Positions 37,627 to 47,151 of a stretch of DNA of 64,000 nt are shown here, piece by piece. Both the position numbers and the translations under genes were made by a program. Under the pieces are notes generated by a model. The model worked only from the letters and a program-made list of their open reading frames with translations. It was not told the DNA's origin and did no database searches. The stretch's first letter is position 1. Each line of letters begins with the position of its first letter. Origin of the DNA: Enteractinococcus coprophilus (lineage in GTDB: Bacteria > Actinomycetota > Actinomycetes > Actinomycetales > Micrococcaceae); NCBI RefSeq assembly GCF_006716305.1, contig NZ_VFOU01000004.1:62001-126000 (forward strand), written 5' to 3'.

Positions 37627-38496
37627 GTGCCAGATAATCACCGCCACCAATTCGACCCCTATGCCGTGCTAGGGGTCAGCCGTTCGGCATCCAAGCGCCA
37701 GCTTCGCCGGGCGTACTTGGCGTTGGCCAAACAACACCACCCGGATCGCGGGGGTGACGCGGCTCGCTTCGACGAAATCACGAAGGCGTGGAAACAACTT
37801 TCTGAACTTGATTCCACGCCCCGATCGACACCGAAACCCCAACCACGCACCCGCACCAAGCCGACACCTAAGTCCAGCCCCGATCCGGTGCGCTTCATTC
37901 CACCCCTGGCCGATGGACCGATCCGTACGGCCACAAAGCCGCCCGTATCGGTGGATTCGCTCTTGGCCCAACAGGTAGTCCACGGGGTGCTTCCGGGTGG
38001 TTTCTTGCATCGAAAGCAGCGAGCCCTCCACGCTGAACTCTCTGAGGTCCTGCAGTCACGGGTCTACGGGGCGCTACCCGCCGTCCGCATTTTCCACGGG
38101 GTCAAACTCTCACGCAAACTCGTCCTGAATACGGTGTTACTTGGTGGCTCCAAGGTCGCGGTCTTCGGGGTGCAACACGCCCCACCGGATGTCTACCAGT
38201 TCAATGGCACCCACCTGCTGGGTCGTAAGCGCATTGAGCTCCCGGATCTGACCGAGGCCGTGCTCGGTCTGCAGCAGTTGCTGCCAACCTTTGAGGTCGG
38301 TGGGTTCGCCGTCATCTTTTCCGCCAATCCACACGCCCCAACCATCCAGGCCCCGGATGCGCTCAATACCCTTGGGCTGACCGAGGCTCCAGCGTCCGTC
38401 ATGGACGCCGTCCGCAATATCAAACTCTTTATCGGCACCGGCAATCACAATGTGGTTGATCGGACCGCCATGGGACAACTCATCGCCACACTATGA
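37627..38496 (+). CDS. J-domain protein with a C-terminal nuclease-like or unknown domain
   Basis: A 289-residue protein. Residues 9-60 form a J-domain (PYAVLGVSRSASKRQLRRAY, HPD at 38-40), which stimulates DnaK-type Hsp70. A Pro/Thr-rich linker runs to about 95. The C-terminal 190 residues (FLHRKQRALHAELSEVL, VRIFHGVKL, VAVFGVQHAPPDVYQFNG) contain alternating strands that recall NERD-like nuclease-related domains, but I cannot confirm a family. There is no zinc-finger or CTD of classical DnaJ. The start is GTG with a close upstream -10. Its stop overlaps trmL by four bases. Confidence 0.8.
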   Translation: MPDNHRHQFDPYAVLGVSRSASKRQLRRAYLALAKQHHPDRGGDAARFDEITKAWKQLSELDSTPRSTPKPQPRTRTKPTPKSSPDPVRFIPPLADGPIRTATKPPVSVDSLLAQQVVHGVLPGGFLHRKQRALHAELSEVLQSRVYGALPAVRIFHGVKLSRKLVLNTVLLGGSKVAVFGVQHAPPDVYQFNGTHLLGRKRIELPDLTEAVLGLQQLLPTFEVGGFAVIFSANPHAPTIQAPDALNTLGLTEAPASVMDAVRNIKLFIGTGNHNVVDRTAMGQLIATL

Positions 38497-39017
38497 CACA
38501 CAATCCACACGACACGGCACCACGAGCCGCCGACCCAACTAACCCGGGCTTTCGGCTGCTCTTCCATACCCCAGAAATCCCAGGCAACACCGGTAATGCC
38601 ATCCGGCTGGCCGCGATCACCGGCGCGCAATTGCACCTGGTGGAACCCCTGGGCTTTAATTTCGACGACGCCCACCTGCGGCGGGCCGGCCTGGACTACC
38701 ACGACTTGGCCGTGATGACGGTGCACAAAGATCTCGCCGCTGCCTTCAAAGCGCTTGCTCCCGCGCGGGTTTTTGCCTTCACTGGCACCGGCACGGTTCG
38801 CTACGACGAAGTCTCCTATCACCCCGGCGACGTGTTGTTATTCGGACAAGAATCCACCGGTCTGCCTGATGACGTGCTCAACGACCCTGCGATCACCGAA
38901 ACCGTTTATTTGCCGATGCAAACCGGTCGGCGCTCGTTGAATCTGGCAAATTCGGCATCGATTGCGCTGTATGAAGCCTGGCGGCAGTATGAATTTGCCG
39001 GCAGTTCACCACGCTAG
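38493..39017 (+). CDS. trmL: tRNA (cytidine/uridine-34 2'-O)-methyltransferase TrmL-like
   Basis: A 174-residue SPOUT methyltransferase of the YibK/TrmL group, which methylates the ribose of the wobble base in tRNA-Leu in other bacteria. It shows LLFHTPEIPGNTGNAIRLA, LVEPLGFNFDDAHLRRAGLDY, LFGQESTGLPDDVL and the terminal knot RSLNLANSASIALYEAWRQ. Translation is coupled to the J-domain gene (four-base overlap). Confidence 0.92.
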   Translation: MTHNPHDTAPRAADPTNPGFRLLFHTPEIPGNTGNAIRLAAITGAQLHLVEPLGFNFDDAHLRRAGLDYHDLAVMTVHKDLAAAFKALAPARVFAFTGTGTVRYDEVSYHPGDVLLFGQESTGLPDDVLNDPAITETVYLPMQTGRRSLNLANSASIALYEAWRQYEFAGSSPR

Positions 39018-39063
39018 GGCGCGCCGAGCCTGCGTGAAGACAGCGCAGTTACTAAGCTAAGTC

Positions 39064-40443
39064 GTGATGGAAACACATACCCCTGGCCCAGCGCACTTAT
39101 TGTTCCAATCCGGAGAGAACGACACTGCCGCGTTCGCAGCGTTGTATGATCTCACCTCGCCGCAGGTCTTTGGCATGCTCACCGCACAGTTCCCTTCCGA
39201 AGACGATGCATTGCAGGCTACGACTGACGCCTACATCACGCTGTGGCGCCAGGCTCCACACTTTACATTCGATTTCAACGTTGACCACGCCGATGAACTA
39301 GCACGGGACCGCACCGTGGTCGCGTGGATCAATTCGATAGCCCAGCAAACTGGCCGCTACCACCGCCCCGACGCCACCACCATCGGCGATGTGGACCGCA
39401 TGCGCGCCATCGCAGCCCGCCTAGGCGAACTCGAACCACTCACCGAGGCCCAAGCCGTCGCCCTGACCACCGTGTGGTTGGGTGGGCGCACCATCGACGA
39501 GGCCGCCGATGAACTCGACGTGGCCCTACCGACCTTGAAATCTCGCCTGCGCGATGCCGCGGTGCGCCTGACCCGCCACTACCTCACCGAGATCACCGGC
39601 AGCACGTCCGCCGAATCGGACCCGCTGCTGGCCACCCGGGTCACCGGAACCCTCTCGGCGTCGGGCGGTCAAACGGCCGCGTTTTCCGATGATATTGATG
39701 TCGATCTGCACGTGGGCCTCGGCAGCGAGCTGGCGACCCTGAATGCGCTACAGGCTCTGGATGACGACGACGCGGTAGCTGTCGAAGCCTGGATCAACCG
39801 CCAAGATCGCGACGTTGCCGCCCAACTACGGGCCCGCACCGCACTCTTCCAACGCATGCTGACCTGGGCGTTTCGTCGGGTCGCCGCCCATCCCCCGGCC
39901 CATCTGTTGGATTCGGTGCTAGAACAACTGCCCGAACAAAATGTGGGCATCGGGTTTATTGAAACCGTGGACGAGTACGAAGTCGAGGAAGACCCCGACC
40001 AGCAGCGCCGCAGTCGGGCGATGTTCATCGTCGTGGGCGCCGTATTGATTATCGCTGTGATTGTGGCCGTCATCTTTTTGAATACCGGTGACCAGCGCAT
40101 CCGCAGCGCCGTCGATAATGCCCAAGACCGGACTAGTGTTTCGGCAACCATGGACGGGGCCTCGGTGACCGGCCACTTCTCCAACGACGAAGACGTCGCC
40201 TACCTGTCCTTTAGTGATGTACCTGAGCTGGCCGAAGATGAACGCTACCAGGTCTGGCTCTTTGAAGAGCCCGGTGGCTCGGTTGTTTCAGTCGGTACCT
40301 ATACGGCCCAGCAGTTGGAAAACGGTGAGGTCCAGTTCCGCGGGGTGACCAATTATGAACTGTTGTGGATCACCGTCGAACCCGAAACCGGGTCTGAAAC
40401 GCCATCCAGCACCGCTCTGGTCGAGATGTCGCTGCAGGACTAG
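39064..40443 (+). CDS. Fusion of ECF-type sigma factor with RskA-type membrane anti-sigma factor
   Basis: A 459-residue protein read in one uninterrupted frame. Residues about 20-100 resemble sigma region 2 (AAFAALYDLTSPQVFGMLT, ATTDAYITLWRQAPHF, VVAWINSIAQQTGRY). Residues 122-172 resemble region 4 with its helix-turn-helix (LTEAQAVALTTVWLGGRTID, LPTLKSRLRDAAVRL). Residues about 222-292 resemble the anti-sigma domain (ELATLNALQALDDDDAVAVEA, PAHLLDSVLEQLP). A single membrane helix lies at about 320-339, and 345-457 is an RskA-type extracytoplasmic domain (YLSFSDVPELAEDERYQVWLF, LLWITVEPETGS). Normally SigK-like and RskA-like proteins are separate genes. Start is GTG at 39064 or ATG one codon later; no clear ribosome binding site is seen. 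Region 2 contains an acidic insert (FDFNVDHADELARD), so promoter recognition may be lost. Confidence 0.72.
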   Translation: MMETHTPGPAHLLFQSGENDTAAFAALYDLTSPQVFGMLTAQFPSEDDALQATTDAYITLWRQAPHFTFDFNVDHADELARDRTVVAWINSIAQQTGRYHRPDATTIGDVDRMRAIAARLGELEPLTEAQAVALTTVWLGGRTIDEAADELDVALPTLKSRLRDAAVRLTRHYLTEITGSTSAESDPLLATRVTGTLSASGGQTAAFSDDIDVDLHVGLGSELATLNALQALDDDDAVAVEAWINRQDRDVAAQLRARTALFQRMLTWAFRRVAAHPPAHLLDSVLEQLPEQNVGIGFIETVDEYEVEEDPDQQRRSRAMFIVVGAVLIIAVIVAVIFLNTGDQRIRSAVDNAQDRTSVSATMDGASVTGHFSNDEDVAYLSFSDVPELAEDERYQVWLFEEPGGSVVSVGTYTAQQLENGEVQFRGVTNYELLWITVEPETGSETPSSTALVEMSLQD

Positions 40444-40476: not shown

Positions 40477-41235
40477 CTAGAACCCGGCGAACGTGGTCTC
40501 GTCATTGACGGCAACCACGTGAAAGACTTCGGCGGCCCGCCCAGGCGTGGGATGACACTCTTGCATTGCGGTGCGCACGCGATGGTCCATGAATGCTGGA
40601 TCCGGATGCTGCGAGGCATGCACGTGGAGCGCTTCGAGTTTGCGCTCGACATATTCGGTGACATCAATGGCGACGTTTGCTAATTCGCTGGGAGCGCCCA
40701 TCATCCACAGCTGGCCGATGCGAAATGCCGGAAGGTGTGCCAATTGTGGGTAGGCAAATGGGTTTTCCACGGCCGGGTAGATCGCTCGCACTGTCGCTTC
40801 CCCAACCGCCAGATGGTCAGGGTGCGAGGCTTGTAAGCGTTGCCAATGGCGTTGCGGGTGCTGGGTGATGACGACGTCGGGCTGGACCTCACGCATCACC
40901 TGAACTAATTGCGCCATCAGTTCGTGAGTGGGTTCTACATAACCGTCGAGGTGTTTCAGATAGCGCACTTCCGAGACTCCGACGACGGCGGCTGCGGTGC
41001 GTTGTTCCTGCTCACGCCGGGCGATCATCGCTTCGCGCGAATGGTCCAGCTCAAATCCTCCCGCGTCGCCCGAGGTGACCAGACAATAAGTGACATCTAC
41101 GCCCGCGTCGGTCAGGGCTGCGATGGTCGCGGCTGCTCCGAAGTCAATGTCATCCGGGTGCGCGGCAATGGCCAGCGCACGGGTGATGTTCGACTTTTTG
41201 ACAAGGTCAGCAGCAAAGACAGGTTGGTTGAGCAC
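40477..41235 (-). CDS. PIG-L/LmbE-family N-acetylglucosaminyl-type deacetylase
   Basis: A 252-residue zinc hydrolase with the family motif AHPDDIDFG and the downstream SHPDHLAVGEATVRAIYP. The family includes MshB and Mca of mycothiol metabolism and other sugar N-deacetylases. The motif has Asp-Ile-Asp instead of the common DDE, as in some subgroups, so the substrate cannot be fixed. It follows the HtrA-like gene by 16 bases on the same strand and is convergent with the sigma/anti-sigma fusion. Confidence 0.85.
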   Translation of the reverse strand: MLNQPVFAADLVKKSNITRALAIAAHPDDIDFGAAATIAALTDAGVDVTYCLVTSGDAGGFELDHSREAMIARREQEQRTAAAVVGVSEVRYLKHLDGYVEPTHELMAQLVQVMREVQPDVVITQHPQRHWQRLQASHPDHLAVGEATVRAIYPAVENPFAYPQLAHLPAFRIGQLWMMGAPSELANVAIDVTEYVERKLEALHVHASQHPDPAFMDHRVRTAMQECHPTPGRAAEVFHVVAVNDETTFAGF

Positions 41236-41251: not shown

Positions 41252-42559
41252 CTAGTTCATCGTGCCCAGCGTGACCGTTTCATGAAACTCTTCACCGTCT
41301 CGGAGCACGGTCAACTCCACTTCGGAACCCCCCGGATATTCACGCACGGTGGCCGATAGCGAGCCGGGATCGGTAACCGGTTGACCGTCGACGGCGGTAA
41401 TCACGTCGTCGGACTGCAGCCGGGTGCCGGCGGCTGGACCGTCTTCAACGACCTCAACGACACGGGCCCCAGATGAGAGACTGCCTTGGCCCGTTGGCAC
41501 GATGGTCACGCCGAGGACACCGTGGGAGGCTTCGCCGTTCTCAATGAGTTCTTGAGCGACGCGCTGAGCGTATTCCACGGGGATTGCAAAGCCCAGGCCA
41601 ACGTTACCTTCAGTACGCGTAGCGATTGCCACATTGACGCCGATCAGCCGTCCTGCGCCGTCTACGAGAGCACCACCCGAGTTCCCGGGGTTGATTGCGG
41701 CGTCGGACTGAATGACGTTGAGATGAATCTGCCCCTGTGCTGCGGGCGGCTCGGTATTGTCGGGTAGCCGGAATTCAAAGGGGTTTTCTTCCTGCGGCGT
41801 GTCCTGTTCTTCTGGAACCGCTGACGAGGCAACCGAAATTGTGCGATCCAAATTCGAGATGATGCCCTCGGTTACGGTGCCTGATAATCCCAGCGGCGCA
41901 CCGATGGCCACCGCTTGGTCGCCGACATTCATGTCCTGGGAATTACCCATCTCGATGGGCTGGAGGCCTTCTGCATCAATCTTCACCACGGCAAGGTCAG
42001 ACATCGGATCAAGACCGACCACTTCGGCCTCGTACACTTCGCCATCGTGAGTCTGCACGAGCACACCGGCAGCAGCGGTTTGACCACCAAGGGTCACAAC
42101 GTGCGTGTTCGTGAGGATATGGCCCTGTTCATCCAGGATCACTCCGGAACCGGAGCCCTCGGCTTGATCGCCCCCGACGGCAAGTGTTACAACCGACGGC
42201 GATGCCACTGCAGCCGCTTCGGTCGTGGGCGTGACGTTATCTGTGCGGTTGAGCTGGGGGGAATCGCGGATCTCGCTGGACGCGGCAGGTGAGCCGTCGT
42301 CGAGATAATGTGCCGTCAGTCCCCCGGCACCTCCACCGAGCACCGCGGCCAGTGCGACAGAGGTCAACAGGGCGGGCCAGCCGAAACGTTGTGGTGAGCG
42401 CTGGTGGTTAGCGGACGCTTCAGGTTCAGAGTGCGGTTGGAACGAGCGTTGAAACTGCGGTGGCGGCGGTGGAGCATCATTGCCCGACGGGACGGATGAC
42501 GCGTCGCGCCGATCCGAGGGATTCGTGTGCTCAGGTTGCGGGGGCCAAGTCTCGTGCAT
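41252..42559 (-). CDS. HtrA/DegP-like membrane serine protease with PDZ domain
   Basis: A 435-residue protein with a Pro-rich cytoplasmic N-terminus, one membrane helix (about 62-84), an S1C trypsin-like domain with His153 (LTNTHVV), Asp188 (MSDLAVVKID) and Ser294 (NPGNSGGALVD), and one C-terminal PDZ domain (VEDGPAAGTRLQSDDVITAVDG). Such proteases handle damaged extracytoplasmic proteins. An acidic insert (about 246-275, EEQDTPQEENPFEFRLPDNTE) lies in the loop region. AGGA precedes the ATG. Confidence 0.94.
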   Translation of the reverse strand: MHETWPPQPEHTNPSDRRDASSVPSGNDAPPPPPQFQRSFQPHSEPEASANHQRSPQRFGWPALLTSVALAAVLGGGAGGLTAHYLDDGSPAASSEIRDSPQLNRTDNVTPTTEAAAVASPSVVTLAVGGDQAEGSGSGVILDEQGHILTNTHVVTLGGQTAAAGVLVQTHDGEVYEAEVVGLDPMSDLAVVKIDAEGLQPIEMGNSQDMNVGDQAVAIGAPLGLSGTVTEGIISNLDRTISVASSAVPEEQDTPQEENPFEFRLPDNTEPPAAQGQIHLNVIQSDAAINPGNSGGALVDGAGRLIGVNVAIATRTEGNVGLGFAIPVEYAQRVAQELIENGEASHGVLGVTIVPTGQGSLSSGARVVEVVEDGPAAGTRLQSDDVITAVDGQPVTDPGSLSATVREYPGGSEVELTVLRDGEEFHETVTLGTMN

Positions 42560-46098: not shown

Positions 46099-47151
46099 TC
46101 ACGAACAGGTGGGGTGTTCTACTTCACCTGCTGGCGCAGCCAGAATTTCAAGTGCCGTGTCCAGTGTATCGACACTGTAAACGGTCATGCCCTCTGGGAC
46201 ATGCGTTATTTCTGCACAGTTTCGTTCGGGTGCCAAAAAGATCGTGGCACCCGTCGAGCTCGCGGCGATCACTTTTTGTTGCACGCCACCAATTGGCCCA
46301 ACGGTGCCATCCGGGTCGATCGTGCCGGTACCGGCAATGTGGCGACCATCAGTGACTGATGCTTCTGTCATCAGATCGATCAGTGCCAGCGTGAAGATCA
46401 ATCCAGCCGAGGGTCCGCCCACGTCTTGTAAGTGGATCTCGACATCGATTGGGAATTCAAACTCCGAATCCAAAAACACCCCGATCTGGTAGGCCCCCTC
46501 CGCGCTTTGAGTCACCGGGATGGTGAAGGTCTGGTCTTCACCATGGCGCCGCACCCGCAGCTTGACCGGTTGTCCATTAGCTTCTTGGATCGTATTGACC
46601 AACTGCGCATGACCGGTAATCTCGGTGCCGTTGATGCTGATAATTTCGTCGTCCTGCTCTAGGAACTCTGCCGCCGGAGAATTTTCGGTGAAGTCTAAAG
46701 CGAATAAGCGTTGCTGGTAGTCCATGTCCAGATGTTCCAGGGCCGCAGCCACCGCCCAGGACTGCGAATCTGCCATCGCCTCGGCGTTCTGGGTCCGAAC
46801 CTCCTCACCGGTGGTTTCAGGAGGATACAGTAATTCGGCCGGAGTAATCGCTGGATACGGCTGGGCTGCTTGGTAGAGCACGTCTACCAGCGTGGAGTTC
46901 GACGTTGGCGGACCGGAAACCGAAATCGTTGTCAGATCTAAGCGCCCCTCGGTCGGATAGGTTGGGACGCCGTCGATTTCGATCATCTCCATCGGCTTAC
47001 CTTCAATATCGACCTGCTCTAGCGTGTCAAATGTTGGACCCGGTTTCTGGAGGGTGTAGGGAGTGGGGATGAATAATGCGGCCAACAGCAGAATGGCCAA
47101 CACCCCTCCGACGCGTCTCGCCCGAGCCCGCAGTCTTGTTTGGACGTCCAT
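46099..47151 (-). CDS. PDZ and Lon-type protease domain protein (YlbL/Rv3194c family)
   Basis: A 350-residue protein with an N-terminal membrane anchor (about 14-29), a PDZ domain (about 145-215, ENSPAAEFLEQDDEIISING) and a C-terminal S16 Lon-like domain with Ser248 (VGGPSAGLIF) and Lys293 (GGVQQKVIAA), the catalytic dyad. It has no ATPase domain. It acts outside the membrane; substrates are unknown. It stands upstream of UPF0182 (about 70 bases), the same order as Rv3194c-Rv3193c. Confidence 0.92.
   Translation of the reverse strand: MDVQTRLRARARRVGGVLAILLLAALFIPTPYTLQKPGPTFDTLEQVDIEGKPMEMIEIDGVPTYPTEGRLDLTTISVSGPPTSNSTLVDVLYQAAQPYPAITPAELLYPPETTGEEVRTQNAEAMADSQSWAVAAALEHLDMDYQQRLFALDFTENSPAAEFLEQDDEIISINGTEITGHAQLVNTIQEANGQPVKLRVRRHGEDQTFTIPVTQSAEGAYQIGVFLDSEFEFPIDVEIHLQDVGGPSAGLIFTLALIDLMTEASVTDGRHIAGTGTIDPDGTVGPIGGVQQKVIAASSTGATIFLAPERNCAEITHVPEGMTVYSVDTLDTALEILAAPAGEVEHPTCS

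Follow-up and report, generated by a model that had tools for sequence, protein, structure and literature searches.

The fusion gene at the trmL/PIG-L locus

The window analysed here is a stretch of 64,000 nucleotides from Enteractinococcus coprophilus, in which a single open frame on the forward strand runs from GTG 39064 or ATG 39067, the latter probably being the start, to a stop at 40443; counted from the ATG, it encodes 458 amino acids. The gene stands between trmL and a PIG-L deacetylase gene, with an HtrA-type protease gene beyond, and this arrangement recurs in nearly all genomes that carry the fusion (Table 1). The window also encodes, a few kilobases downstream and close to the HtrA gene, a protein with Lon_C and PDZ domains (46099-47151), a putative membrane-associated protease.

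Table 1. Genes, domains and motifs at the locus, in window positions (residues are those of the fusion protein).
Feature	Positions	Strand	Remarks
trmL (SpoU methylase), upstream neighbour	38493..39017	+	conserved locus partner
putative -10 element TAAGCT	39053..39058	+	invariant in 7 Yaniella/Enteractinococcus genomes; rest of the intergenic stretch variable
fusion gene (SigK-like sigma + RskA-like anti-sigma), 458 aa	39067..40443	+	one open frame, conserved as such in 43 family genomes
sigma2-like domain, residues 8-99	39088..39363	+	SigK match 8-169; pLDDT mostly >88; structural matches to ECF sigma2
region 2.2 equivalent, residues 43-66	39193..39264	+	without the invariant Gln and Glu of SigK
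insert, loop between regions 2.2 and 2.3, residues ~66-84, VDHADELARDRT	39262..39318	+	Trp to Trp 27 vs 16 residues
region 2.4 equivalent, residues 88-100, INSIAQQTGRYHR	39328..39366	+	SigK counterpart is HRRAVDKVR
sigma4-like domain with helix-turn-helix, residues 109-177	39391..39597	+	Pfam Sigma70_r4_2 0.0023; KSRLRD retained
interdomain linker, residues 178-208, DPLL...VT	39598..39690	+	conserved motif; pLDDT low at 191-201
anti-sigma domain, RskA_N type, residues 209-290	39691..39936	+	Pfam 0.0049; 4nqw_B TM 0.85, rmsd 1.2
cytoplasmic juxtamembrane motif EQNVGIGFIE, residues 290-299	39934..39963	+	alignment with short TM+RskA_C proteins
transmembrane helix, single, residues 310-339	39994..40083	+	AlphaFold helix; hydrophobic sequence
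extracytoplasmic RskA_C domain, residues 341-456	40087..40434	+	Pfam RskA_C 4.6e-15
PIG-L deacetylase, downstream neighbour	40477..41235	-	conserved locus partner
HtrA-type serine protease with PDZ, neighbour	41252..42559	-	conserved neighbour; putative site-1 protease (speculative)

The invariant TAAGCT lies 7-8 nt upstream of ATG 39067 and suggests a leaderless message from a housekeeping-type promoter, and a consensus scan of the + strand upstream of the fusion gene gave no complete sigma-70 site. That the anti-sigma half is also translated on its own was rejected for the window's genus, in which none of the internal starts that have a Shine-Dalgarno-like stretch is conserved; Citricoccus and Micrococcus terreus do have an ATG at such an internal position.

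The initial annotation had read the frame, by comparison with the SigK/RskA pair, as sigma-2-like and sigma-4-like regions followed by an anti-sigma domain, a single helix in the membrane and an extracytoplasmic RskA domain, and profile searches and the AlphaFold model agree on this order. Searched by itself, the sigma half matched the NCBIfam SigK model over residues 8-169 (E 9e-20; 71 bits, below the model cut-off of 226) and the ectodomain, past the one membrane helix, matched RskA_C (56.5 bits against a cut-off of 29.4), while Sigma70_r4_2 and RskA_N (anti-sigma half searched alone, below the Pfam cut-off) gave weak Pfam matches and Sigma70_r2 none in the fusion protein. Among solved structures, phmmer found M. 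tuberculosis SigK (4nqw_A, residues 14-170, 6.7e-08) and R. sphaeroides SigE (residues 17-171), together with a weak match to RskA (4nqw_B), so that the lack of any relation to sigma domains can be excluded. AlphaFold places sigma2 at residues 8-99, sigma4 at 109-177 and the anti-sigma domain at 210-287; a lone helix (310-339) and an ectodomain of beta structure (355-456) follow.

The RskA_C domain of the fusion is the only one in the genome. A free second SigK as partner was considered and rejected, as the SigK model gave just two matches apart from the fusion, one of a general ECF-like kind (G000:C4:43020) and one that is weak (C1:541030, E 0.002). The linker between the two halves is missing from the two-gene form; its DPLL...VT motif (39619-39645) is found across genera, and among 13 fused proteins D185 is invariant, and P186 and T193 nearly so. 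This motif is a possible cleavage or docking site.

Distribution, origin and the three forms of the locus

A first survey, of 59 genomes (the window's own and its relatives), found the one-piece frame both in the genus and in other genera of the family. A scan of genome contigs identified the carriers as Enteractinococcus, Yaniella, Auritidibacter, Citricoccus, Micrococcus, Nesterenkonia and Garicola, which include soil, skin and salt-loving bacteria, and a script verified the single frame in each. Over the whole family, the one-piece frame is present without stops in 43 of 245 genomes and in six genera, among which are Yaniella/Enteractinococcus, Auritidibacter, Citricoccus/Micrococcus terreus, Micrococcus and Nesterenkonia/Garicola; the initial annotation's call to look for the same fusion elsewhere is thereby answered. 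Seven of the eight other genomes of the window's genus carry it, and the eighth is only 71% complete. Because this frame is intact in 43 genomes, a frameshift between two ancestral genes, which the annotation had itself considered, or an assembly artefact is rejected. Fused proteins share 78-92% identity within the genus and about 30-47% between genera. Other genera of the family have sigK and rskA as two adjacent genes. In a tree built from 35 fused proteins and 32 two-gene ones, a single branch (support 100/100) separates all the fused ones from the rest, which is consistent with one fusion event behind all of them.

Several variants were seen along the way. In the Micrococcus group, one fragmented assembly with 6% contamination has a TAA inside the fusion frame (G210:C222:13800-15206), and in another genome (G163, L133:5000-6046) the fusion is truncated past the membrane helix, with the sigma part, anti-sigma part and helix kept and the ectodomain lost. 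In many Nesterenkonia/Garicola fusions (L043, L072 and others), the open frame is extended at the N-terminus by a long, apparently acidic stretch of up to about 160 residues ahead of sigma2, the start codons being putative. Enteractinococcus helveticum has an extra SigK-like ECF match (L134, G005:C22:281709-282194, E 2e-22) that reads across one TAG and is not seen at that score in other genomes of the genus.

The trmL/PIG-L locus occurs in two further forms in other Micrococcaceae. An intact two-gene sigK-rskA is found there in L122-L126 and L128, and on the trmL side only in L127. In eight genomes (L114-L121, that is G025, G029, G028, G030, G034, G075, G098 and G059), the locus holds a short protein of 182-244 aa that consists of the juxtamembrane motif, the membrane helix and RskA_C, with neither a sigma nor an anti-sigma domain. 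In L114, the gap between trmL and the short gene is only about 85 bp, and therefore no sigma part is hidden there. At least five of the short-form genomes carry another sigK-rskA pair elsewhere.

In a tree of helix plus ectodomain, the fused proteins form one clade and the short proteins another, and jointly they stand apart from every two-gene RskA (100/96). By alignment, both share the juxtamembrane motif (EQNVGIGFIE in the window, DLGLDLVDE in the short forms), which is not found in two-gene RskA and which, among the matches listed in a search of 347 genomes of the order, is confined to the Micrococcaceae. The neighbour-gene tree, unlike the RskA_C tree, groups the short forms with the two-gene genomes; the sigma part may have been lost by the short form or gained by the fused one. 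Whichever form came first, the module of helix and ectodomain is kept without a sigma part in sister lineages.

The sigma half: signature residues, selection and predicted structure

The sigma half was compared residue by residue between 35 fused proteins and 42 two-gene SigKs, with the L014 two-gene protein as the reference for numbering. Two positions, Gln-59 in region 2.2 and Asp-93 in region 2.4, are each present in 42/42 two-gene SigKs and in 0/35 fused proteins; Arg-90 is found in 40/42 and 0/35, and Glu-60 of region 2.2 is mostly replaced in the fused proteins. Gln-59 aligns with Q51 of E. coli RpoE, whose sequence served for numbering only. This residue is among the region-2.2 contacts that co-evolve with anti-sigma helix 4, and regions 2.1/2.2 bind mainly the beta' clamp helices (PMC7406223). 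In the window's genus, the equivalent of region 2.4 retains 0/9 of the SigK consensus positions. The divergence of region 2 that the initial annotation had suspected is thus borne out, this being the most altered part of the protein, and so is its acidic insert: the loop between regions 2.2 and 2.3, counted between the conserved Trp of each, has 23-57 residues in all 35 fused proteins, while it has exactly 16 in all 42 SigKs. In ECF sigma factors, this loop (L3) reads the flipped -10 base (PMC8103513). Additionally, regions 2.4 and 4.1 are 30-39 residues apart in fused proteins and 48-50 in two-gene SigK; the sigma2-sigma4 linker of ECF holoenzymes threads through the active-site cleft and the RNA exit channel (PMC6372665), and its deletion in SigH abolishes transcription (PMC6411747). 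As a SigK-type protein, the fusion has the sigma2 and sigma4 homology and the region 4.2 helix-turn-helix, and lacks both region 2 signatures and the standard length of the -10 loop.

These losses bear on the main rival to our reading, that a working sigma factor is stored at the membrane and freed by regulated intramembrane proteolysis, which was also the first reading of the initial annotation and which we consider unlikely. A site-1 cut would be followed by a Rip1-type site-2 cut and degradation of the anti-sigma part, as happens with IutY of P. putida and is proposed for ECF48/52/53 (PMC5411451; PMC8999054). Beside these precedents, the genome has a gene for an M50 (Rip1-type) site-2 protease (checked by gene presence alone), the conserved neighbourhood includes a gene for an HtrA-type protease, and the sigma4 motif is retained. 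However, a freed sigma factor would have to act without the region 2.2 and 2.4 invariants, absent in 35/35, and with a larger -10 loop and a shorter sigma2-sigma4 linker, and a membrane cut would leave the anti-sigma domain still covalently joined to it; the upstream element resembles a housekeeping -10 and gives no hint that the gene regulates itself.

The KSRLRD helix-turn-helix motif of region 4.2 is retained in fused proteins except in Micrococcus sensu stricto, and its key positions K/R/R/D are kept in 31/30/35/34 of the 35. That about 30/35 proteins keep this motif while region 2 is rewritten would suit a regulator tethered to the membrane in the manner of ToxR/CadC, with sigma4 as its sole remaining DNA-binding part and sigma2 as a lid, but we hold this to be very improbable, given that anti-sigma helix 1, the part that in class I complexes lies over the -35 contact surface (PMC7406223), persists, and that the motif is lost in Micrococcus.

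Two-gene pairs have a ratio of sigma to anti-sigma evolutionary rates of 0.27-0.59, fused proteins one of 0.78-0.96; the sigma half of the latter no longer shows its additional constraint. Within Yaniella/Enteractinococcus, conservation along the protein peaks in regions 2.2-2.4 together with the insert (93% identity; 96% for the insert). The pN/pS of this stretch is 0.05; it is 0.15 for the protein as a whole and 0.21 for RskA_C. These values are comparative only, because synonymous sites are near saturation. Because of this conservation, the sigma half is not drifting and not junk within the genus. The same results weigh on another alternative, that only the membrane helix and ectodomain matter and that the sigma and anti-sigma parts are a passenger eroding since the fusion. 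The sped-up sigma half, the lost signature residues, the degradation of the sigma4 motif as well in Micrococcus and the short orthologues that lack both parts entirely would all fit such erosion. We nevertheless regard it as quite unlikely, as constraint in the window's genus is strongest on region 2 and the insert, neutral dN/dS is not seen in the sigma half, the frame is intact in 43 genomes, the predicted fold stays confidently closed, and the truncated protein of G163 lost its ectodomain and kept the rest.

AlphaFold models the whole protein with a mean pLDDT of 82.7 and cytosolic residues 1-292 with a pTM of 0.85, in a closed form in which sigma2 and sigma4 clasp a class I anti-sigma domain (4nqw_B TM 0.85). 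The best solved match to the predicted cytosolic half is SigK of the SigK-RskA crystal (4nqw_A, Z 12.5, 2.3 Å), superposed over 141 of 148 residues with both sigma domains covered, whereas polymerase-bound ECFs superpose domain by domain only (rmsd about 26 Å over both domains). From this, the predicted state is the inhibited one. The closed form may be AlphaFold recall, since 4nqw was in its training, and the model counts as support rather than proof.

A probably repurposed sigma/anti-sigma pair

It is directly established or strongly supported by the above that the frame is in one piece and arose once, that its locus is conserved and that the signature residues for RNA polymerase and the -10 are lost. 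On balance, we think it probable that the fusion is an ancestral SigK/RskA pair, anchored in the membrane, in which the sigma half has ceased to function as a sigma factor. In favour of this are the loss of Gln-59 and Asp-93 in 35/35 proteins and of Arg-90, which occurs in 0/35; the enlarged 2.2-2.3 loop and shortened 2.4-4.1 distance; the raised rate ratio; the strong conservation of regions 2.2-2.4 and the insert within the genus; the fit of the AlphaFold form to SigK in the SigK-RskA complex, with holoenzyme ECFs fitting only one domain at a time; the orthologues at trmL/PIG-L that keep only juxtamembrane motif, helix and ectodomain; and the fusion having the sole RskA_C in its genome. Of the two readings in the initial annotation, the second, lost promoter binding and service as a membrane sensor module, is therefore the better fit; release by cleavage, with a Rip1-type gene and the IutY precedent on its side and the signatures, loop and linker against it, is possible and less likely.

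To hypothesize, the protein would act at the membrane, where the RskA_C ectodomain would sense the envelope and pass a signal through the one helix and the juxtamembrane motif to a rigid, sigma-shaped head. The cytosolic part is predicted to be permanently closed, with sigma2 and sigma4 gripping the anti-sigma domain to which they are covalently linked, in the manner of the SigK-RskA crystal, and the output of the head would be contact with a partner, or with DNA via the retained sigma4 helix-turn-helix, and no new RNA polymerase holoenzyme. ECF sigma factors vary widely, and loss of signature sites in sequence does not prove that sigma activity is lost. As a counterpoint, the sigma4 motif, kept in most lineages, hints at DNA binding. 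The full proposal, of a "pseudo-sigma" family that was fused once in Micrococcaceae and is the permanently closed, non-transcribing head of a membrane sensor, with sisters that dropped or never had the sigma part, we hold to be about evenly balanced between right and wrong.

The closest known system is SigK/RskA (ECF19/ECF18; M. tuberculosis, PDB 4nqw), which has the same domains in the same order, the same predicted sigma2-ASD-sigma4 sandwich and a two-gene form at the trmL/PIG-L locus of sister genera; the fusion differs by its one chain, lost region 2.2/2.4 invariants, enlarged loop and shortened linker. RskA can activate as well as inhibit SigK, and two SigK cysteines matter for this (PMC7509140), while the sigma half of the window protein has no cysteine and hence none of those of the M. 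tuberculosis protein. With sigma, anti-sigma and helix in one conserved frame, the protein belongs with the membrane sigma/anti-sigma fusions. Among these, IutY of Pseudomonas putida (ECF243) likewise joins sigma, anti-sigma and one membrane helix, but it is of FecI/FecR type with an outer-membrane receptor and a sigma domain whose release by Prc and RseP is proven (PMC5411451), whereas the window fusion is of RskA type, with no receptor and its sigma signature lost. Membrane fusions are also known from ECF48, ECF52 and ECF53 and from part of the ECF36 members (PMC8999054); ECF48/ECF52/ECF53 of Actinobacteria (e.g., SCO4117) are sigma factors with a C-terminal membrane anti-sigma extension, with zinc-finger anti-sigma and other extracellular domains, unlike the RskA_N/RskA_C extension inside the SigK family found here. 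The short TM+RskA_C proteins of other Micrococcaceae share locus, juxtamembrane motif and sister position in the RskA_C tree (100/96), and differ from the fusion in having neither cytosolic domain. Such fusions are thus already known as a class (IutY, ECF48/52/53), and the SigK-RskA fusion is conserved and new as a variant; literature searches returned no report of it, which is weak evidence of novelty.

A sigma fold is usually taken to mean a transcription factor, and in this family, found in at least six genera and strongly conserved inside a genus, the fold is kept with the polymerase- and -10-binding residues stripped. Such genes should be counted neither as ECF sigma factors nor as plain anti-sigma factors in annotation. 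If confirmed, this would document how a sigma/anti-sigma pair turned into a fixed structural sensor in one instance, and a pseudo-sigma of this kind, if true, would be comparable to pseudokinases. For the family, a single locus offers a natural series, of two genes, one piece and a short remnant, in which the rewiring of a switch can be studied.
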